Positions 44,156-55,486 of a stretch of 64,000 nt of DNA are shown piece after piece. A program made the translations under genes and the position numbers. This DNA is from Agromyces sp. Leaf222 (lineage in GTDB: Bacteria; Actinomycetota; Actinomycetes; Actinomycetales; Microbacteriaceae), in contig NZ_LMKQ01000001.1 of assembly GCF_001421565.1 (NCBI RefSeq), positions 369,277-433,276 of the forward strand, given 5' to 3'. Every line of letters starts with the position of its first letter. The stretch's first letter is position 1. Below the pieces are notes generated by a model. It was not told the origin of the DNA, searched no databases, and was given only the letters and a program-made list of their open reading frames with translations.

Positions 44156-44360
44156 CCTCGGAGTGTACGACGATCGGTTGCGCGATCACAGGTGCCTACG
44201 CGGGAATGTTGCGTGCGACTGTCGGATCGACCGAGTGCGAAGCCTTCCATGGGCACCGTCGTGCCGCAACCCCTCGCGGATCGCGCTCGACGCGTCGTAG
44301 CGTGACCGCATCGGCCAGCGTCGTGTGATTGTCGTGTCGTGTGATTCGAGGGGGACTCCC

Positions 44361-46256
44361 ATGCACCAGGTTGCGGCGCGTCGTGCGCTCACGTTCTCGA
44401 TCGCGGCGGTCGCCGTCGGCGGGCTGCTCGCCGTCGGCGCGTCGGCCACCGCGGCCGCTCCGCCGGCGCTCGCCCAGGCAACCGCGAGCGGCCTCGCGGC
44501 GGGGGTGTCGGCATCCGCCTCGTCGCGTTGGTCGCCGCAACCGCAGGCGACCGCGGTCGGATCCGGTGGCGCCGTGTCATCCGTCGACGCCGTGGCCAGT
44601 CGCGTCGGCGTCGAGGTCCTCCGCCTCGGCGGCAACGCGGCCGACGCCGCCGTCGCGACCGCGGCCGCGCTCGGCGTCACCGAGCCGTACAGCGCGGGCA
44701 TCGGCGGCGGGGGGTACTTCGTGCACTTCGACGCGAAGACCGGCGAGGTGACCACGATCGACGGCCGCGAGACCGCGCCGGCCGCGATGCCGACCGATGC
44801 GTTCCTCGACCCGGCCACCGGCCAGCCCTACCGGTTCACGCCCGAGCTCGTCTCGTCGGGCGTCTCGGTGGGCGTGCCGGGCACGCTCGCGACCTGGGAG
44901 GCGGCGCTCGACCGGTACGGCACGAAGCGGCTGTCGACGATGCTCGCCCCGGCGATCGCGGTCGCAGCCACCGGGTTCACGGTCGACGAGACGTTCCGCA
45001 GCCAGACGCTCGACAACAAGGCGCGGTTCGCGGCCTTCCCCGACACCGCGAAGCTGTTCCTCCCGAAGGGCGACGCGCCCGTCGTCGGCTCGACCTTCCG
45101 CAACCCCGACCTCGCGAAGACGCTCGGGCTCATCGCGCTGCGCGGCACCGACGCCTTCTACGAGGGCCGCCTCGCCAGCGAGATCGCCGATGTCGTGCAG
45201 CACCCGCGCAAGGATCCGGCCTCGCCGCTGCCGGCACCGCCCGGCACCCTCACGGCCGACGACCTCGCCGCCTACGAGGTCGTCGAGCAGGCGCCGACCC
45301 ACGTCGAGTACCGCGGGCTCGACGTCTACGGCATGGCGCCGAGCTCGTCGGGCGGCACCACCGTCGGCGAGTCGCTGAACATCCTCGAGAACCACGAGCT
45401 CGCGGGCGACACCCCCGAGGCGACGGCGCAGAGCCTGCACCTGTTCCTCGAGGCCACCGCGCGCGCGTTCGCCGATCGCAACGCCTACGTCGGCGACCCC
45501 GCCTTCGTCGACGTGCCGACCGAGACCCTGCTGAGCCAGGGCTTCGCCGACGCCCGCGACTGCACGATCGACCCGTCGGCGGCATCCGCCCGGCCGGTCG
45601 CGCCCGGGGCGCTCGACGCGAGCGGGTGCGCGACGGTCGATGCCGCCGAGCCGACCGACACCGAGAACGTCTCGACCACCCATCTCTCCGTGGTCGACCG
45701 GTGGGGCAACGCGGTCGCGTACACGCTCACGATCGAGCAGACCGGGGGATCCGCGATGACCGTTCCCGGGCGGGGATTCCTGCTCAACAACGAGCTGACC
45801 GACTTCTCGACCGTCTACAACGAGGCCGACCCGAATCGCATCGAGCCCGGCAAGCGGCCGCGCTCGTCGATGTCGCCGACGATCGTGCTCGACGGCGGCG
45901 ACGTGCGGTACGTGCTCGGTTCGCCCGGCGGCGCGACGATCATCACGACGGTCACGCAGATCCTGCTGAACCGCATCGACCTCGGGATGTCGCTTCCCGA
46001 AGCGGTCGCCGCACCGCGGGCCTCGCAGCGCAACGCCGCCGTGACCCCGGCCGAGCCGGAGTTCATCGACGCGTACGGCGCGGCCCTCGGCGCGTACGGG
46101 CAGACGTTCACGCCATCCGGCGACCGGTTCACGTCGGCCTCGCAGATCGGCGCCGCCGCGGCGATCGAGGCCGCACCCGACGGCACGATGACGGCGGCCG
46201 CCGAGCCGGTGCGGCGTGGCGGCGGCACCGCGCTCGTGGTCAGGCCGCGCCGCTGA
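44361..46256 (+). CDS. ggt: Secreted gamma-glutamyltransferase
   Basis: 631 residues from ATG 44361 with GAGGGGG upstream. A signal peptide (to about residue 40) indicates export. The GGT Ntn-hydrolase blocks are visible: GGNAADAAVATAAALGVTEPYSAGIGGGGYF in the large subunit and STTHLSVVDRWGNAVAYT, whose first Thr after NVS is the catalytic nucleophile created by self-cleavage. Then DFS, RPRSSMSPTIV and GSPGGATIITTV line the active site. Cleaves gamma-glutamyl bonds, e.g. in glutathione. TAGCGT at 44298-44303 may be its -10 box. Confidence 0.93.
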   Translation: MHQVAARRALTFSIAAVAVGGLLAVGASATAAAPPALAQATASGLAAGVSASASSRWSPQPQATAVGSGGAVSSVDAVASRVGVEVLRLGGNAADAAVATAAALGVTEPYSAGIGGGGYFVHFDAKTGEVTTIDGRETAPAAMPTDAFLDPATGQPYRFTPELVSSGVSVGVPGTLATWEAALDRYGTKRLSTMLAPAIAVAATGFTVDETFRSQTLDNKARFAAFPDTAKLFLPKGDAPVVGSTFRNPDLAKTLGLIALRGTDAFYEGRLASEIADVVQHPRKDPASPLPAPPGTLTADDLAAYEVVEQAPTHVEYRGLDVYGMAPSSSGGTTVGESLNILENHELAGDTPEATAQSLHLFLEATARAFADRNAYVGDPAFVDVPTETLLSQGFADARDCTIDPSAASARPVAPGALDASGCATVDAAEPTDTENVSTTHLSVVDRWGNAVAYTLTIEQTGGSAMTVPGRGFLLNNELTDFSTVYNEADPNRIEPGKRPRSSMSPTIVLDGGDVRYVLGSPGGATIITTVTQILLNRIDLGMSLPEAVAAPRASQRNAAVTPAEPEFIDAYGAALGAYGQTFTPSGDRFTSASQIGAAAAIEAAPDGTMTAAAEPVRRGGGTALVVRPRR

Positions 46257-47217: not shown

Positions 47218-47964
47218 TCAGGGGCCGGTCACCGTTCCGAAGGTGAGCCGCCCGTCGGCGGCGAGCGTGACGTCGATGCTCGTCGGCGTGTCATCTGCGC
47301 TGACCGACGTGGCGACGTTGAGCCCCTTTTCTGGGAACCTCCCATCGACCGTGCAGGTCGATGCGGCGCCTCCGAGGTCGGGGAACGCGACCACGACGCA
47401 GAGTTCGGCCGCGTCGCGGGCGAGGAAGACGAGCGTCCCGTCGGGGCGTGTCGCGAGAAGGCGGTATTCGAGCGAGCCGTTCCCGAATCCGAACTCCGGC
47501 GGCAGGGGTGCGGCGTCGGCCTCGGTCGCGGGTCGCAGGAACACGTCGGCCGCCGACGCCTCGCCGGCGAGGGGTTGCTCGGCGAGGGAGTCCGCCATGG
47601 AGGGCTGATCCGTGAACGGCGTGGCCGTCGGGGTCGGCATCGCCGACTCCGCGGTCGCGTGCAGAGTCGTGCCGAGCTGCCAGCCCGCGAGGAGGCCGAC
47701 GACGAGCGCCGCGAGGCCCACGATGATCGTCCCGCGGAGCCGCCCGCTCGGAACGGAGTCGGCGGCCACCGGGGTGACGGCCGGCTGAACCTCGGGCTCG
47801 GCGGGTGGTTCGCCCGCCGCGACCTCGGCCTCGACGGCCGCCGCCGAGCGAGCCTCCCGCAGCGCATCCAGCTCGCGCGCGGCATCCGCTCGCTCCGCAT
47901 CGGAGGCGCCGGAGCCGAACGCGAGGCGTTGCAGGCGGGCGAGGTCGGCGTCGGGTTCGGGCAC
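47218..47964 (-). CDS. Single-pass membrane protein with DADxARLQRxAFGSG motif (copy 1)
   Basis: 248 residues from GTG 47964, chosen for GGAGG five bases upstream; an ATG at 48024 would add 20 residues. Opens with PDADLARLQRLAFGSGASDAER, has a membrane segment GTIIVGLAALVVGLLAGWQLG in the middle and an extracytoplasmic domain with ELCVVVAFPDLGG..C..DGRFPEKG. The protein encoded at 54578 shares all these features. Family not recognised. Divergent from the split amine oxidase genes, so it may regulate or assist them. Confidence 0.78.
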   Translation of the reverse strand: MPEPDADLARLQRLAFGSGASDAERADAARELDALREARSAAAVEAEVAAGEPPAEPEVQPAVTPVAADSVPSGRLRGTIIVGLAALVVGLLAGWQLGTTLHATAESAMPTPTATPFTDQPSMADSLAEQPLAGEASAADVFLRPATEADAAPLPPEFGFGNGSLEYRLLATRPDGTLVFLARDAAELCVVVAFPDLGGAASTCTVDGRFPEKGLNVATSVSADDTPTSIDVTLAADGRLTFGTVTGP

Positions 47965-48205
47965 GGCATCCTCCGTCGGGCGGCGAGGTTCGGGCACGCC
48001 GTGATCTGGTTCAGGATGCCGCATCGCCCGTGGACGGGCAACCGTGCCCGCCGCGCCCACCGGTGCGGCATCGCGGCGCCTGCGGTGCCGCCGGTGTCCC
48101 AACCGGGTTCACGCCGACGAAACACGCTGCTCGGCAGCGCCGAAACACCGGCTTCCTAAGTTCGGCTCATTCGCATTCCGCGAATGCCCGTGTCCAGGAG
48201 GTTCG

Positions 48206-48955
48206 ATGCAATCACCACCGAGCAACACCCGAACGAGACGACTGCCGTACGCGATCCTCGGTGGCGGCGTCATCGCCGCGGCCGCGATCGTCGGCGGCTT
48301 CATGGCCATCCCGGCCGTGAGCGGTGCGAGCGGCGCCGACAGCTCCGCGACCGAGGAGCTCGAGGCGGTCACGTCCAAGCCCGAGCTCGGTGCGCCGCGC
48401 GACCCGCTGAGCCCCGACGAACTGAGCTACGCGATCCACCTCGCGAGCACCGATGAGAGCGTGCCGGCGGACGTCACGTCCGTCGACGGATCGGACGCGC
48501 CCCAGGTGCTCTCCGTCGACATCGCGAACGGAGACGTCGACGCCACCGGACGCCTCGTCGACGTGTACCTGTTCGACTACACGTCGAACCAGACGTTCCT
48601 GCAGCGGGTCGACCTCGCCGCGGGCGACGTCGAGAGCACGTCGAAGGCGGGCGTCCAGCCGCCGCCCACTCCCGACGAGGTCGACTACGCGTTCGGCGTC
48701 TTCCTCGGCGACGCCGCGGCCAGCGCCGCCGTGCGCGCCGAGTACACGTCGGTCGCCGGCGGCGAGCTCGAGTCGATCGAGCAGCTCGCGGTCACCGGCG
48801 GGGCCTTCGTGCCGGACGCAGGAACCCTCGGCGCCGAGGCCTGCGGCATCGACCGATGCGTGGAGATGCAGTTCCGCGTGCCCGGCGGCGGATACCTCGA
48901 CACGACCGCATTCGTGGTCGACCTGTCCACCGAGTCCGTGATCGGCATCAAGTGA
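48206..48955 (+). CDS. Copper amine oxidase N2/N3-domain subunit (tyramine oxidase subunit B-like), secreted
   Basis: 249 residues from ATG 48206 with AGGAGG upstream. Twin-Arg-like start (RTRRLP) and a hydrophobic segment (residues 15-38) suggest export. Residues 66-180 (PLSPDELSYAIHLAS, then GRLVDVYLFDYTSNQTFLQRVDLAAGDVESTSKAGVQPPPTPDEVDYAFGVF) follow the pattern of the CuAO_N2/N3 domains: LsxxEi, then R-A-x-V, VdL and the xqPpxtxeE motif. These domains normally lie in the same chain as the catalytic domain. Here that domain is encoded in the next gene, 11 bases on. A Cys213/Cys218 pair may form a disulfide. Confidence 0.75.
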   Translation: MQSPPSNTRTRRLPYAILGGGVIAAAAIVGGFMAIPAVSGASGADSSATEELEAVTSKPELGAPRDPLSPDELSYAIHLASTDESVPADVTSVDGSDAPQVLSVDIANGDVDATGRLVDVYLFDYTSNQTFLQRVDLAAGDVESTSKAGVQPPPTPDEVDYAFGVFLGDAAASAAVRAEYTSVAGGELESIEQLAVTGGAFVPDAGTLGAEACGIDRCVEMQFRVPGGGYLDTTAFVVDLSTESVIGIK

Positions 48956-48966
48956 GAGGCATGACC

Positions 48967-50880
48967 ATGAAGAGGATCTCCCGCGCGATCGCCGTCGCGG
49001 CGGCCGCCGTCGCCGTCGCCGCCGGCCTCGCCGTCATCCCGGTGACCTCGGCCACGGCCGCGGCGCCGGTCGTGAACTGCTCCGGTGACGCGCTCATCGA
49101 GAAGTCGTTCGACAACGGCACCGACTGGCAGATGTGCTGGCGCATCGACAGCAAGCACGGTCTCGTGCTCGAACAGGTGGCCGTCAAGGCCCCGGGGGAG
49201 GACTCGTTCCGCCGGGTCCTCGACTCGGTGAGCCTCGGACAGCTCAACGTGCCCTACGACACCGGCAAGAACGTCTGGAACGACATCACGTCGTACGGCT
49301 TCGGCAACCAGTACCTGCAGAAGCTCAGCGCGGCCGAGTGCAGCACCGGCACGCTCCGCGACTACGGACAGGCGTGGAGCGTCACCCGCCGCGGCGTGAC
49401 GACGAACTACCTGCGCACGATCCCGTCGCTCTGCATCACGGACACCACGCGCGACATGTCGTACCGCTCGCACGAGCAGAGCTGGGGGTCGATCGAGGAC
49501 AAGCCGCTCTTCACCGCGACGGGGCAGGCGTTCAACCTCACCATCGTCTCGAAGGTCGACTGGTACGAGTACGCGACCAAGGTCGAGTTCACCGACGAGG
49601 GGGCGATCTCGTTCAACCTCGGTGCGACCGGGGACATCTCCTACGAGGACTTCGACGCGGATGCGACCACCGGCTGGCCTGTGGGAACGGATGCGGCGAA
49701 CTACGCGGCCTCGCACTGGCACAACGCGTTCTGGCGCCTCGACTTCGGTCTCGACGGCCAGAGCCTGCAGCAGGTCGAGCAGTACGACTCGACGCTGGGC
49801 GAGCCCGGCGAGATGGCACCGCTGATGCACACCACCGGCGCGACGATCGAGCACCCGGCGAACCTCGTGCCCGCCGCCGACACCACGTGGTGGCGGGTGG
49901 TGGCGCCCGAGAGCCGCAACACCGACAACCACGCGCGTTCGTACGAGTTCGTGTTCCCCGGTTCGCAGCTCTACCAGGGCAACCCGATCACGCAGCCGCT
50001 CATCAGCGTCACGAACTACGCCGACTGCGAGCAGTTCGCGAGCAACAACCTCAACCCCGCCTGCCCCAACCTGAGCGTGCTCGACTACGTCGCGAACAGT
50101 GCGGATGCCGCCCTGACCGACCCGGTCGCCTGGGTCAACAGCGGGTTCCACCACGTCGTGCGCGACGAGGACCAGAGTCCGATGCAGACGCACTGGCAGT
50201 CGTTCTCGATCATGCCGCGCGACTGGACGGCGCAGTCGATGAGCACCCCCGATGCGAGGACCTGCATCAACGGCGACACCGGCGGCGAGATCCACAGCGA
50301 CGAGACGCCGTGCGAGGCGGTCGTGCCGACGGACCCCGAGCCGACCGACCCGCCGGCGACGACCGAGCCGACGGACCCGCCCGCGACGACCGAGCCGACC
50401 GACTCCCCGGAGCCGACCGACCCGGCCGAGCCGGGCGAGGGCGACGGCCAGGATGCCCCGAGCCTCTCGATCTCGGCGAAGGATCTCGCCCCGGGCGAGA
50501 GCTTCGCGCTCGAGGGCGCGGGCTTCGCGCCCGATGAGACCGTCGCGGTCGTGCTGCACTCCGACCCGATCACGGTGGGCACCCTCACCGCGAACGACGA
50601 GGGTGAGATCGCGGGCACCCTGAAGGTGCCCTCGGACGCGCCCGACGGCTCGCACAGGATCGTCGTGACGGGCGCCGAGTCCGGGCTGACGGCGGAGGTC
50701 GACGTCACGATCGCCACGGCGGCGGCACCGGCAGGCGCCGCCGGACCGGTCGCCGCGCTGCTCGCCTCCACGGGCACGGCGCTGCCGATCGCGGCCGCGT
50801 CGGTGGCGCTCGCGCTCCTCGTCGCGGGCGGGGCGCTCATGCTCCGCCGGCGTCGCCGGTCGGCGATCACGTCGATCTGA
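48967..50880 (+). CDS. Copper amine oxidase catalytic subunit with LAxTG wall anchor
   Basis: 637 residues from ATG 48967 (GAGAGG seven bases upstream). Signal peptide to about residue 33. Residues 38-430 align by eye with the CuAO catalytic domain: base Asp106 (WNDITSYGFG), topaquinone-precursor Tyr200 (VDWYEY, replacing the usual NYDY), copper ligands His250 and His252 (SHWHNAFWRLDFGLDG) and probably His396 (FHHVVRDEDQSPM). The spacing of Tyr and the two His (50, 52) fits known enzymes. The usual Asn before the Tyr is Trp. A Pro/Thr linker, an Ig-like domain (about 498-582), LASTG (599-603), membrane segment and Arg tail follow, a class E sortase signal. Oxidises amines at the cell surface (inferred). 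Confidence 0.82.
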   Translation: MKRISRAIAVAAAAVAVAAGLAVIPVTSATAAAPVVNCSGDALIEKSFDNGTDWQMCWRIDSKHGLVLEQVAVKAPGEDSFRRVLDSVSLGQLNVPYDTGKNVWNDITSYGFGNQYLQKLSAAECSTGTLRDYGQAWSVTRRGVTTNYLRTIPSLCITDTTRDMSYRSHEQSWGSIEDKPLFTATGQAFNLTIVSKVDWYEYATKVEFTDEGAISFNLGATGDISYEDFDADATTGWPVGTDAANYAASHWHNAFWRLDFGLDGQSLQQVEQYDSTLGEPGEMAPLMHTTGATIEHPANLVPAADTTWWRVVAPESRNTDNHARSYEFVFPGSQLYQGNPITQPLISVTNYADCEQFASNNLNPACPNLSVLDYVANSADAALTDPVAWVNSGFHHVVRDEDQSPMQTHWQSFSIMPRDWTAQSMSTPDARTCINGDTGGEIHSDETPCEAVVPTDPEPTDPPATTEPTDPPATTEPTDSPEPTDPAEPGEGDGQDAPSLSISAKDLAPGESFALEGAGFAPDETVAVVLHSDPITVGTLTANDEGEIAGTLKVPSDAPDGSHRIVVTGAESGLTAEVDVTIATAAAPAGAAGPVAALLASTGTALPIAAASVALALLVAGGALMLRRRRRSAITSI

Positions 50881-50945: not shown

Positions 50946-51626
50946 ATGCGACGTCCCATCGCGACGACGGTCGCCCTGGCGGTCGTCCTCGTCGCCGGCG
51001 CGGCCCTGATCGGGCCGAGGCTCGCGGCGGCCGACGCCGCACAGGCGACCGAGCGCATCGACGGCGCCCCGGGCAGCACCGTCATGGCGGCCTCCGGCCG
51101 GGCCGAGACATCCGAGGCCCTCGTGCCGTCGGGCGCCGCGGACGGAACAGCGGCCTCGGTCGACGACGTGCCCGACGACGCGGACATGCTGTTCGCGATG
51201 ATGATGGTGCCGCATCACGAGCAGGCCGTCGAGCTCTCGCGGATGCTCGCTGCGACGCCGGGCATCGACGGCTTTTCGACCTCGCTCGCAGCCTTCATCG
51301 ATGCGGACCAGACCAAGGAGATCGTGGCCATGAACGCGTGGCTCGACGCCTGGCACGGGGTCGGCATCATGAACCACGACCGCGGCGGGGCGATGGCGGG
51401 CATGGCGACGCCCGAGCAGATCGCCGAGTTCGACGCCCTGTCGGGTGCGGCCGCGGAGGCCAGGTTCCTCGAGTTGATGATCGCCCACCATCGTGGTGCG
51501 CTCGCCATGGCCGACGATGCGATCGCCGACGGCCGCAACAGCTACATCCGCTCGCTCGCGAAGCACATCGCCGCAGAGCAGGAGCGGGAGATCGCCGCGA
51601 TGACCCTCAGGCTGGGCGAGCTGTGA
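50946..51626 (+). CDS. Secreted DUF305 protein
   Basis: 226 residues from ATG 50946 (AAGGAG upstream). Signal peptide in the first 30 residues. Two DUF305 modules are visible: DADMLFAMMMVPHHEQAVELSRML and EARFLELMIAHHRGALAMADDAI, each with a His-His pair; MNHDRGGAMAGM sits between them. DUF305 proteins are ferritin-like bundles often linked to copper. Position after a copper amine oxidase suggests a role in copper supply or handling. Its stop overlaps the signal peptidase gene. Confidence 0.88.
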   Translation: MRRPIATTVALAVVLVAGAALIGPRLAAADAAQATERIDGAPGSTVMAASGRAETSEALVPSGAADGTAASVDDVPDDADMLFAMMMVPHHEQAVELSRMLAATPGIDGFSTSLAAFIDADQTKEIVAMNAWLDAWHGVGIMNHDRGGAMAGMATPEQIAEFDALSGAAAEARFLELMIAHHRGALAMADDAIADGRNSYIRSLAKHIAAEQEREIAAMTLRLGEL

Positions 51627-52162
51627 ACCGTCGCGGCGTCGCCGTCGCGGTCGTCGGTGCCGGGGCCGTGCTCGCCGTCGCGCTCGGTCTCGGCGCGGTG
51701 ACCGGCGCGGCGGTGCACCGGGCCGACTCCCCGTCGATGGCGCCGGCGATCGAGGTCGGCGACGTCGTGGTCTCCGCAGGACTCAACGGCGTGCCGGAGC
51801 GGGGCGACGTGGTGGTCTTCTCCGATCCCGGCGGATGGGGGCCGCGCGTCGCGCGGCTGCTCGGCCGGGACCGGGTGTCGGAGACGTTCGTGAAGCGCGT
51901 GGTCGGCCTCGCGGGGGAGCGCGTCGCGTGCTGCACCGCCGCCGGCGCGCTCACCGTCGACGGCGCGCCGTTGCCGGAGCCATACCGGGTGCCGAACGAC
52001 GGGCTCGCGAGCGTGCTCGCCTTCGACGAGATCGTCCCCGACGGCGAGGTGTTCGTGCTCGGCGACGCGCGCTCGGCCTCGATCGACTCCCGCTACCTCG
52101 GCAGCGTGCCCCTCGAGTCGGTGACCGGCGTCGTGCAGTTCGTGGTGCCGCTCGGCGGATGA
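51623..52162 (+). CDS. Small type I signal peptidase (S26 family)
   Basis: 179 residues from GTG 51623, overlapping the DUF305 stop. One N-terminal membrane segment, then the S26 motifs: DSPSMAPAIEVGD (nucleophile Ser38), FVKRVVGLAGE (Lys91) and VFVLGDARSASIDSRYLG (GDN-like). A peptidase so tightly coupled to secreted-protein genes may be devoted to processing the amine oxidase subunits or DUF305. The main housekeeping signal peptidase is presumably elsewhere. Confidence 0.87.
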   Translation: MNRRGVAVAVVGAGAVLAVALGLGAVTGAAVHRADSPSMAPAIEVGDVVVSAGLNGVPERGDVVVFSDPGGWGPRVARLLGRDRVSETFVKRVVGLAGERVACCTAAGALTVDGAPLPEPYRVPNDGLASVLAFDEIVPDGEVFVLGDARSASIDSRYLGSVPLESVTGVVQFVVPLGG

Positions 52163-52208: not shown

Positions 52209-52970
52209 TCAGCCGGCCGTCGAGCCCACCGGATAGGCGAGACGCGCCAACTCGTCGCACGCTTCGAGCAGCACGCCCAGGTGCCGCTCGGCAGACGCGA
52301 GGTCGCCGCCGGCCGATGAGAGCACGACCGCCGCGACCAGCTCCCCGTCGGGGGAGCGAACGGGAACGGCGATGCACGCACGCGGGGCGGGACCGCGCTC
52401 GGTGCACCGCGCATGGCCCAGCTGCGCGACCTCCGATGCGATGCGCCGGCGCTCCTCGATCGAGATGCCCGAGGCACGCGCCGAGTCCGCGACGACCTTC
52501 GCCGCGCGAGGATCGCTGGTTGCCTGCAGCGGTGGGAACGCGGCGATGAGGAGCCGGCCGATGGCCGTCGCGCCGAGTTGACGGCGGGTGCGGTCGATCG
52601 AGAGCAGCGGCAGGTCGGGATCCTCGTCGACGACCACGACCCGACCGCCCGGGTACCGCACGAAGTGCACGGCTTCGCCGGTGCGCTCCCGGAGCGCGGC
52701 GATGATGCCCGGGATCGGGTCGGCCCGGCTCGGCGCGATGAGGTGGGCGAGCTCGACCACGCGAACGCCGAGCACGAAGCCGTCGAGCGTCGGATGCCGC
52801 AGCAGGTACTCGTCGCTCGTGAGCGAGTTGATGAGGCGGTACGCGCTCGCGCGCGGCATGCCGAGCAGCTGCGCGATGCGGTTGGCCGAGAGCGTCGGAC
52901 CGCCACGGGCGACCTCCTCGAGCACCGCGAGTGCGAGGGCGACGCCGCTGACGCCCGATGGGCCGCTCAT
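52209..52970 (-). CDS. IclR family regulator
   Basis: 253 residues from ATG 52970, overlapping the stop of the permease gene upstream. N-terminal winged helix LALAVLEEVARGGPTLSANRIAQLLGMPRASAYRLINSLTSDEYL, then an IclR effector domain (EAVHFVRYPGGRVVVVD, LGATAIGRLLIAAFPP, CIAVPVRSPDGELVAAVVLSS). Encoded with an amino acid/amine permease, whose expression it may control. Convergent with the signal peptidase gene. Confidence 0.92.
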   Translation of the reverse strand: MSGPSGVSGVALALAVLEEVARGGPTLSANRIAQLLGMPRASAYRLINSLTSDEYLLRHPTLDGFVLGVRVVELAHLIAPSRADPIPGIIAALRERTGEAVHFVRYPGGRVVVVDEDPDLPLLSIDRTRRQLGATAIGRLLIAAFPPLQATSDPRAAKVVADSARASGISIEERRRIASEVAQLGHARCTERGPAPRACIAVPVRSPDGELVAAVVLSSAGGDLASAERHLGVLLEACDELARLAYPVGSTAG

Positions 52971-54436
52971 GGCCGCCGAGCCGGAGCCGAGGAGATCGCG
53001 TCGGCGGCCACGGGCGTGTCGTAGGCGCCGACGCGGTCGGCGAGCCCGGGGCCCGAGCGCACGCGCAGCAGGTGCGCGATCGTCGCCGCCGCGATGAGGG
53101 CGACCAGGATGCACAGCGCCGTCGCGTCGTCGGCGGCCTCGGCGAGCATCTCGGTGGCTGCGACCCCGGTGAGCGCGATCGTGCCGAGCAGCGCGGGCCA
53201 CGCCTCTCGCAGGCTGAACTCGCGGATGCGCACCAGGTAGGGGATCGCCGCCGCGCAGACCGCGAGGTAGGCGATGATGAACGCCATGCTCTCGGCCAGG
53301 TGCACGACGTCGCGGTAGAGCGATTCTCGGCCCGCCCCGACGAGCAGGAGCGTTCCGGCGATGAGCACCGCACCCACGGCGACGGCCGCGACGTGGGGCG
53401 TCGCGAACCTGGTCGACGTGCGTCCGAGTGCCTTCGGGAGGACCCCCTCGCGGGCCATGGTGAACACGAGGCGCACGAGCGCGTTCGTGCAGGCGAGCGT
53501 GCACGCGATCCACGATGCGGCGACGACGGCGTGGATCACGGGGTCGAGCCACGGGCTCGCGGCGACGTCGGCCTCGGTCAGCAGCGACGCGTCTCGACCG
53601 GCAGCGACGGCGGAGAGCTGGGCGAGCATGCCGAACAGGTACACCGCGGCGACGGAACCGACGGTCCACACCAGCGCGCGGGGCACGGCGGCGAGCGGGC
53701 GTCGGCTCTCGGGCCCGAGCGCGGTGCCGCTCTCGAAGCCGACGAAGCAGATGAGCGCGAACCCGATGCCCTCGGCGAACGAGGAGAGCGAGGGTGCTGC
53801 GCCGAGATCGGGCACGACGCCCTCGATGTTCCAGCCGGTCGCCGCGAACACGGTGAACGAGACCGCGATGAGGGCCGCGACCACGACGGCCTCGACGACG
53901 AGCATGACCCGCGTCGATGTGCGCGCGCCGAGGGCGATGACGACGGTGACGGCCGCGCCGATGCCGATCACGAGCAGCACGGAGGCGGGGCCGTCGGCGG
54001 CCCATCGCTCGGCGCCCCCGAATGCGGCGTCGAGCCGGCGCACGGCGCTGCGCAGGGTGTCGATCGAGACGCCCGCGTAGCCGAGCAGCAGGGCGACGCC
54101 GGCGACCATGCCGGCGGCCGGGCCGAGGCCCCGCGTCACGAAGGTGTAGATGCCGCCGGCGGCGGAGATCCGCCGGGCGAAGACGGACATCGACAGTGCG
54201 ACGAGGATCACCGCCGCTGCGGTCAGCAGCAGGGTCACGAACGCGAACGAGCCGGTGCGGTCGACGAGTCCGCCGGTCAGGATGAGGAGGCCGCCCGCCG
54301 GCGCCACCGCGGCCACCGATTGCGCGACGAGGTCGAGCGTCGTCACCGATCCGCGTCGCAGGCCGTGCAGCGGTGACACGGATGCGAGGCTCGCGTCTGG
54401 TGTCCGTCGCGCGATCGCGTCGCTGAGTGCGCTCAC
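52967..54436 (-). CDS. APC superfamily amino acid/amine permease
   Basis: 489 residues, twelve hydrophobic segments. LRRGSVTTLDLVAQSVAAVAPAGG near the N-terminus and GGIYTFVTRGLGPAAGMVAGVALLLGYAG are typical APC features; FEEG-like motif appears as FVGFESGTALGPESRRP. Imports amino acids or amines. Operon with the IclR gene, and next to the split amine oxidase locus on the opposite strand; the product aldehyde or the amine itself may link them (inference). No clear Shine-Dalgarno at ATG 54436. Confidence 0.92.
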   Translation of the reverse strand: MSALSDAIARRTPDASLASVSPLHGLRRGSVTTLDLVAQSVAAVAPAGGLLILTGGLVDRTGSFAFVTLLLTAAAVILVALSMSVFARRISAAGGIYTFVTRGLGPAAGMVAGVALLLGYAGVSIDTLRSAVRRLDAAFGGAERWAADGPASVLLVIGIGAAVTVVIALGARTSTRVMLVVEAVVVAALIAVSFTVFAATGWNIEGVVPDLGAAPSLSSFAEGIGFALICFVGFESGTALGPESRRPLAAVPRALVWTVGSVAAVYLFGMLAQLSAVAAGRDASLLTEADVAASPWLDPVIHAVVAASWIACTLACTNALVRLVFTMAREGVLPKALGRTSTRFATPHVAAVAVGAVLIAGTLLLVGAGRESLYRDVVHLAESMAFIIAYLAVCAAAIPYLVRIREFSLREAWPALLGTIALTGVAATEMLAEAADDATALCILVALIAAATIAHLLRVRSGPGLADRVGAYDTPVAADAISSAPARRP

Positions 54437-54577: not shown

Positions 54578-55348
54578 TCAGCGCGCGACGGCCGTGACGG
54601 TGACCGTGCCGTCGGACAGCCAGACGACCTCGAACCGGGCTGCCTCGCGCTCGGCGACCACGTGGATGCCGCCCTCGGGGAACCGACCGCTCTCGGTGCA
54701 GCGGCTGAGCCCGCCCTCCGTCGGGAATGCGACGACCAGGCAGGCCTCGCCGTCGCGGAGCGCCGCGAAGGCGCGCGAGCCGTCGGGCAGGGTGAGCAGC
54801 AGTCGTTGCTGGCGGAATCCGTCGCGCACCCACGAGCGGGGCAGGGCGTCGCCCGAGATCGACTCGCGCGTGAAGACCGCAGCGGCCCCCGCCTCCGAGA
54901 CGAGCGGCAGCGACTCGAGGTACTCCGCGTACGCCTGAGCGGTCGGAGGCGTCGACGGCGCGGAGAGCGTGGTCGGGTCGACGGCGCCGCGCGAGCCGAG
55001 TCCCCAGCCGATGAGCACCCCGAACGCGAGGGCGAGCGCACCCGCCGCGAGAGCCCACCGCATGCGCGACTCCGGTCGGTCGGGGGCGACGGATGCCGGT
55101 GCGCGGCCGTCCGGCGCGGCGTCGCCCGCCGATCGGCCTGCTGGGGGCATCGCCGACCGCGGCACGGTGAGCATCGGCGAACCGTCGGCGGAGCCGGCCT
55201 CGGCGAGCTCGCGGACGGCCACCTCACGCTCCGCGTCGGTCGCCCCGGAGCCGAAGGCGATGCGCTGCAGGCGGGCGATGTCGGCATCGCGCCCGCTCGC
55301 GGCATCCGGAATCGGACCGGCGTCGTCCTGCTGGTCGTTGCCCGTCAT
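54578..55348 (-). CDS. Single-pass membrane protein with DADxARLQRxAFGSG motif (copy 2)
   Basis: 256 residues from ATG 55348 (GGAGGG five bases upstream). N-terminal RDADIARLQRIAFGSGATDAERE, membrane segment WALAAGALALAFGVLIGWGLGSRG and an outer domain with GEACLVVAFPTEGGLSRCTESGRFPEGGI. It is a paralogue of the product of 47218-47964, with the same order of features. The two conserved outer Cys could form a disulfide. Function unknown. The stretch 54437-54577 before the permease gene shows no further feature. Confidence 0.8.
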   Translation of the reverse strand: MTGNDQQDDAGPIPDAASGRDADIARLQRIAFGSGATDAEREVAVRELAEAGSADGSPMLTVPRSAMPPAGRSAGDAAPDGRAPASVAPDRPESRMRWALAAGALALAFGVLIGWGLGSRGAVDPTTLSAPSTPPTAQAYAEYLESLPLVSEAGAAAVFTRESISGDALPRSWVRDGFRQQRLLLTLPDGSRAFAALRDGEACLVVAFPTEGGLSRCTESGRFPEGGIHVVAEREAARFEVVWLSDGTVTVTAVAR

Positions 55349-55486
55349 GACGCCCTCCATCGGCGGTCGTCATGAGGGCGGCGACCGCCGCGGTGTCAGG
55401 TCCCCTTCAGGATCCCTCACCGGTCGGGCTGCGGCAACCTTCCGTGCGCGGATGGCTCGCCGCGACGCCGGCGGCGCCACCCGACG

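Follow-up and report, generated by a model that had tools for sequence, protein, structure and literature searches.

Does the two-gene locus at positions 48206 to 50880 of the window (the whole stretch of 64,000 nucleotides that was analysed) encode a copper amine oxidase (CuAO) divided into two proteins, and if so, is the division an accident of one genome or a property of a family? According to a review, the CuAOs structurally characterised by 2012 are all homodimers, each monomer being a single chain that comprises D2 (N2), D3 (N3) and the catalytic domain (PMC3382800). In this locus, by contrast, these domains lie in separate reading frames, which departs from the one-chain layout of the canonical homodimeric topaquinone (TPQ) CuAO. 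We consider it very probable that the locus encodes a two-subunit CuAO, made of separately exported N2/N3 and catalytic halves that associate noncovalently and use topaquinone, the catalytic half being anchored to the cell wall in Microbacteriaceae. Homology of the two halves, their complementarity and near-universal pairing, the catalytic residues, the sorting signal and the gene neighbourhood are all computed results, and are taken up in turn below.

The catalytic chain (48967..50880, + strand, 637 amino acids) is identified by PF01179, by NF058582 and by its conservation in 105 distinct domains. It consists of a leader, the CuAO catalytic domain, a Pro/Thr-rich linker, a weak Ig-like region and an LASTG sorting signal. 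Translation from the ATG at 48961 is possible, but the ATG at 48967, which leaves a gap of 11 nt from the small-chain stop, is better spaced behind GAGAGG. The HMM check suggested by the first-pass annotation gave a clear match to PF01179 (108.3 bits, cut-off 27; residues 55–426 counted from 48961), and no other Pfam family matched the chain at E 1. Profile comparison aligned it to columns 260–642 of classic CuAOs (E 2.3e-27), and its profile matched 41 distinct PDB sequences at E 0.001, 40 of them named amine or lysyl oxidases and the remaining one (3pgb_A) titled "Putative uncharacterized protein". The nearest named relatives are from Agromyces, with 97% to A. allii.

The small chain (48206..48955, + strand, 249 amino acids) is an N2/N3-like CuAO subunit with a hydrophobic N-terminal signal or anchor segment and an invariant Cys pair (C213/C218). 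That N2/N3-like domains occupy a gene of their own, as had been read from the sequence at first, is supported by profile comparison, whole-genome profile search and predicted structure, although Pfam is silent, with nothing over any cut-off. NCBIfam gave a faint match to a one-chain amine oxidase (E 0.02, residues 57–177 on model positions 8–129), whereas profile comparison aligned the chain to columns 13–200 of classic CuAOs (E 1.2e-10), and all 23 top rows obtained with its predicted structure (VIA-align) are CuAO N2-N3 regions; both the N2 and the N3 fold could be located on it by these two approaches. Against PDB sequences, the sole hit of the small-chain profile was an ECF sigma factor (E 0.35), and the single sequence returned no hit.

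PF01179 was found in 121 of the 394 class-level genomes surveyed, and its scores are bimodal: classic matches at 470–561 bits cover nearly the whole profile, and a divergent kind scores 90–151 bits, three of these divergent matches spanning part of the profile. The matches outside both groups were either partial (G125, G617) or weak (G649, G629:C57). Besides the window, 40 low-scoring places were taken from the survey, leaving out G629:C57 (21.7 bits) and the two partial matches. A small gene lies directly upstream in 39 of the 40 genomes with a divergent catalytic chain, the exception being G466 (locus L071); in classic loci the catalytic match is preceded, within its own frame, by over 230 residues (30/30 examined). 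In the whole-genome profile search, all 39 strong small-chain matches were paired with a catalytic chain, and 21 of the 23 weak ones immediately preceded a CuAO catalytic match, 17 of these 21 in an open frame as long as a classic one-chain match. The catalytic profile, run against public genomes, found 75 loci, all in Actinomycetota (72 Actinomycetes, 3 Thermoleophilia). The two-gene pair is present in 112 of 116 actinobacterial loci (the window and 115 others) and in 102 of 105 after removal of ten duplicate catalytic domains; no fused form occurs in either set. The initial proposal of a CuAO split over two genes thus stands, as the halves match non-overlapping parts of one-chain CuAOs and are encoded together in these 102 loci, and the split characterises a whole actinobacterial family of these enzymes rather than being a peculiarity of the source genome. 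A description of a split CuAO was not found in the open-access literature, judged by titles and abstract starts among the matches listed.

Two further loci deserve mention. At locus L078 (G649) the profiles of the two chains match side by side, very weakly (22 and 26 bits), and the locus perhaps represents a third, far group. In the classic-type locus G342:C1:3909046-3910919, the N-terminal and catalytic matches lie in frames of 372 and 452 amino acids, which could reflect a broken gene, a sequencing error or an independent split.

In comparison with the one-chain phenylethylamine oxidase of Arthrobacter globiformis (AGAO) and the amine oxidase of E. coli, the split family shares PF01179, the precursor Tyr, the three copper His, the catalytic Asp, the VPY tyrosine and the N2 and N3 folds. 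It differs in having two genes and two chains instead of one of each, a cofactor motif in which Trp stands for Asn and K/R/Q stands for Thr, and an extra N-terminal Cys pair (C40/C59, 74/74 alignment rows). On a tree of 103 split rows and 30 classic actinobacterial enzymes, the two sets are separated by one branch of about 2.6 changes per site with support 100; the tree is a quick one, and the basal branching order within the family is uncertain, since the program warned of long branches joining one deep split group to the classics. Distances in the two chains are correlated (r 0.885, with 0 of 999 permutations as high), a correlation that shared descent alone would also give.

The pairing bears on whether the small chain is a subunit at all. 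It might be derived from N2/N3 domains and yet act as an export partner, a folding helper or a cofactor-assembly factor, while the catalytic chain works alone. A separate protein that usually has its own leader fits such a role, as do L071, L140 and L143, which have no small chain nearby and form one group nested in the split family. In L071 the small chain was absent from the whole-genome profile search, which implies that it is not always needed or has diverged beyond detection; L143 has little upstream sequence present. Against such a role, the small chain covers the part that the catalytic chain is missing, and it is kept directly upstream in 102 of 105 loci. Further, HPAO-1 of Hansenula polymorpha (1ekm; peroxisomal according to its PDB name) is a one-chain enzyme with N2/N3 joined to the catalytic domain, and the small-chain model matches its stretch 17–207, which contains residues 155 and 156; these line the amine channel (PMC3382800). 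We therefore regard a non-subunit role of the small chain as unlikely. The checked neighbours of L071 and L140 are large choice-of-anchor G surface proteins, and the catalytic chains of L071, L140 and L143 may possibly be oxidases with a surface protein as their target.

For the two-subunit enzyme that we favour, the active site should lie on the catalytic chain. The first-pass annotation had placed Asp106, Tyr200, His250, His252 and His396 there; the numbering is right when counted from 48967 (D108, Y202, H252, H254 and H398 in the alignments, which count from 48961), and each residue is conserved in every family row that is not gapped at its position. Across the 105 distinct domains, the precursor Tyr, the Tyr two residues further and the first and second copper His are each found in 105/105, the third copper His in 104/104 with one gap, and the catalytic-base Asp and the VPY Tyr each in 103/103 with two gaps. 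H250, H252 and H396 align with the known copper ligands in pairwise and profile alignments, and an Asp of the catalytic chain falls on the catalytic Asp in the profile comparison and again in AGAO alignments. A loss of the catalytic Asp was considered, since a pairwise alignment was gapped there and set the AGAO base opposite Phe, and was rejected when profile alignments and conservation restored the Asp. Tyr200, an invariant precursor position, is the putative source of topaquinone.

The residue before this Tyr departs from the classic enzymes. The motif in the window is WYEY (49561..49572, + strand), that is, Trp in place of the classic Asn, the topaquinone-precursor Tyr, Glu and Tyr. The Trp, already pointed out in the first reading, is real and family-wide (99/105), and the six members with Asn instead constitute one group on the tree. 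The residue after the precursor Tyr is Glu in 98 domains and Thr in 7; in a deep group formed by L064, L065, L072-L074, L076 and L077, WYTY replaces WYEY. At the position of the classic-consensus Thr, K, R or Q predominates, with A or E also found and Thr in 0/105 (K-x-x-W-Y-E in the window), so the split family departs from the topaquinone consensus T-x-x-N-Y-D/E at two letters, the T and the N; T-x-x-N-Y-E/D occurs in 29 of 30 classic loci, the other being unmatched by the search pattern. As for the surroundings of this deep group, genes beside L074 look like those for glycogen/trehalose-type enzymes.

A natural Trp is unexpected here because mutants of the Asn to Ala are strongly impaired. 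The AGAO mutant Asn381 to Ala does form topaquinone, with a 160-fold lower rate and a flipped quinone (PMC9491219), and the equivalent HPAO-1 mutant contains 5–10% topaquinone (PMC3382800). These mutants, together with the near-universal Trp, the complete loss of the consensus Thr and the long branch on which the family sits, would be consistent with a protein that has the shape of a CuAO and is not a normal topaquinone oxidase, its cofactor being altered or blocked by the Trp and its job being another redox reaction or one with a different cofactor. However, the Tyr, the three His, the catalytic Asp and the VPY Tyr have all been conserved over 2.6 changes per site, the Asn of six members in one tree group looks as if Trp and Asn were interchangeable, and retention of the catalytic Asp would be less expected if the protein had no amine chemistry; we hold such an altered function to be quite improbable. 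Finally, the two frames might be a single CuAO gene interrupted by a frameshift or an assembly error in the source genome. Nothing beyond their close spacing suggests this, and it is ruled out by the conservation of the two-gene layout in 112 of 116 loci, with no fused form and usually with leaders on both chains.

Returning to the two-subunit enzyme, of 102 chains of each kind, 86 small and 90 catalytic ones have a hydrophobic leader (a 17-residue stretch with mean hydropathy of at least 1.6), from which we expect the two chains to be exported and to join outside. Several Streptomyces sources label the small chain a Tat-signal protein; a twin-Arg-like motif was found in 22/102 small-chain and 18/105 catalytic leaders, and these counts did not make a case for exporting the small chain by the Tat route.

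The C-terminus of the catalytic chain, with LASTG, a hydrophobic stretch and an Arg tail, scores 31.6 bits with NF058582 (cut-off 27), which bears out the wall-sorting signal that had been read there, and 15.3 bits with TIGR01167, just under the cut-off of 15.9. The Ig-like domain claimed for the same chain is matched by NF058592, at a weak 26.6 bits against a cut-off of 45. Class E sortases prefer LAXTG. The catalytic chain resembles their substrates in all three C-terminal elements and differs in that the cargo is an amine oxidase. The source genome has two sortase genes (PF04203), either of which may act on it. Counting distinct named loci, Microbacteriaceae have the motif in 20 of 21 and other families in 0 of 44. 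The proposed anchoring at the cell surface would thus apply to the window and its family and not to the others, and most members of the split family would simply be exported.

The genes that follow were examined for roughly 6 kb on either side of each locus, where the contig allows, with profile searches, because gene calls covered the catalytic frame in only 87 of 105 loci; 20 classic loci, hand-picked from the survey matches, served as controls. Next to the catalytic gene, and likely in the same operon, lies a gene for an exported DUF305/CopM-like protein in which the HH motif occurs twice, at residues 90 and 181 (50946..51626, + strand; PF03713 123.4 bits, run on the longer frame from 50889). 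Its stop codon is overlapped by a gene for a signal peptidase I (S26; 51623..52162, + strand, start read from sequence; TIGR02227 89.7 bits, over the cut-off, and PF10502 103.7 bits, both on 51626-52162). On the other strand follow an IclR-type regulator (52209..52961, − strand, start approximate; PF09339 38.2 bits) and an APC-type amino acid/amine permease (52967..54436, − strand; PF00324 56.1 bits). DUF305 is found in 66 of 105 split loci compared with 0 of 20 classic loci, a contrast that is partly taxonomic because the control loci differ in taxonomy from the split ones; in 63 of the 66 it is directly downstream on the same strand, i.e., in an open frame starting within 150 nt of, or spanning, the catalytic stop. 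Profile search did not find it in the fetched stretches of the other 39 split loci, and 17 split loci without DUF305 have another conserved downstream gene, most of these loci lying in large genomes that probably belong to Streptomyces and its kin. Signal peptidase I occurs in 37/105 split and 0/20 classic loci, and an IclR match in 40/105 and 1/20. The permease was rejected as a specific partner, since an APC match is present in 12/20 classic loci as well as in 37/105 split loci; together with the IclR regulator, it suggests amines as a nutrient.

The DUF305 protein is a possible third component of the system. CopM of Synechocystis is a DUF305 protein that binds copper and has a described role in copper resistance (PMC4335983). 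The protein in the window is like it in having DUF305, HH motifs and a leader; it differs in that its gene follows an amine oxidase, and in its score of 76.1 bits with the CopM model NF049983, below the equivalog cut-off of 90, which leaves it outside the CopM metallochaperones. That it might donate copper to the oxidase is a guess from the neighbourhood and from the copper binding of CopM. Three DUF305 genes are present in the source genome, and this locus holds one of them. Also near the cluster, 47218-48102 and 54578-55360 (both − strand) flank it with similar proteins that have a hydrophobic stretch and cluster together; neither matches Pfam, and the second does not match NCBIfam either. 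Upstream, 44325-46256 (+ strand) encodes a gamma-glutamyltranspeptidase (PF01019 494.7 bits) and is in no shared gene cluster.

For assembly, topaquinone formation, activity, copper delivery and substrate, we infer the following course. The adjacent genes would yield an N2/N3 half and a catalytic half, each exported separately, which would join noncovalently outside the membrane and take on the shape typical of CuAOs, the assembly probably being a dimer of heterodimers. His250, His252 and His396 would bind copper, of which the DUF305 protein is a possible donor, and the metal would drive the self-conversion of Tyr200 to topaquinone. With Asp106 as the base, primary amines would be oxidised to aldehyde, ammonia and hydrogen peroxide, the latter being released at the cell surface, and in Microbacteriaceae a sortase would attach the catalytic chain to the cell wall. 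Part of the amine channel would be lined by the small chain, which likely helps to set substrate choice, because HPAO-1 residues 155 and 156 lie in its matched stretch. More tentatively, as an idea with rather less than an even chance, the system might be a modular topaquinone oxidase assembled outside the cell. Its N2/N3 subunit would be exchangeable and supply part of the amine channel, a CopM-type protein from the same operon would load copper after export, with topaquinone forming only then, and the cofactor pocket would be rebuilt by a Trp packed on the quinone that alters its movement between copper-bound and substrate-facing positions.

Many actinobacteria thus appear, from their gene content, to make a CuAO as two separately exported proteins, and a copper supply dedicated to this enzyme is suggested by the DUF305 gene next to it. 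The natural swap of Trp for Asn, with one group that has Asn, is a ready experiment on a residue held to control topaquinone motion. Further, since a two-chain form exists in nature beside a nested group without the small chain, the role of N2/N3 becomes directly testable by mixing chains.
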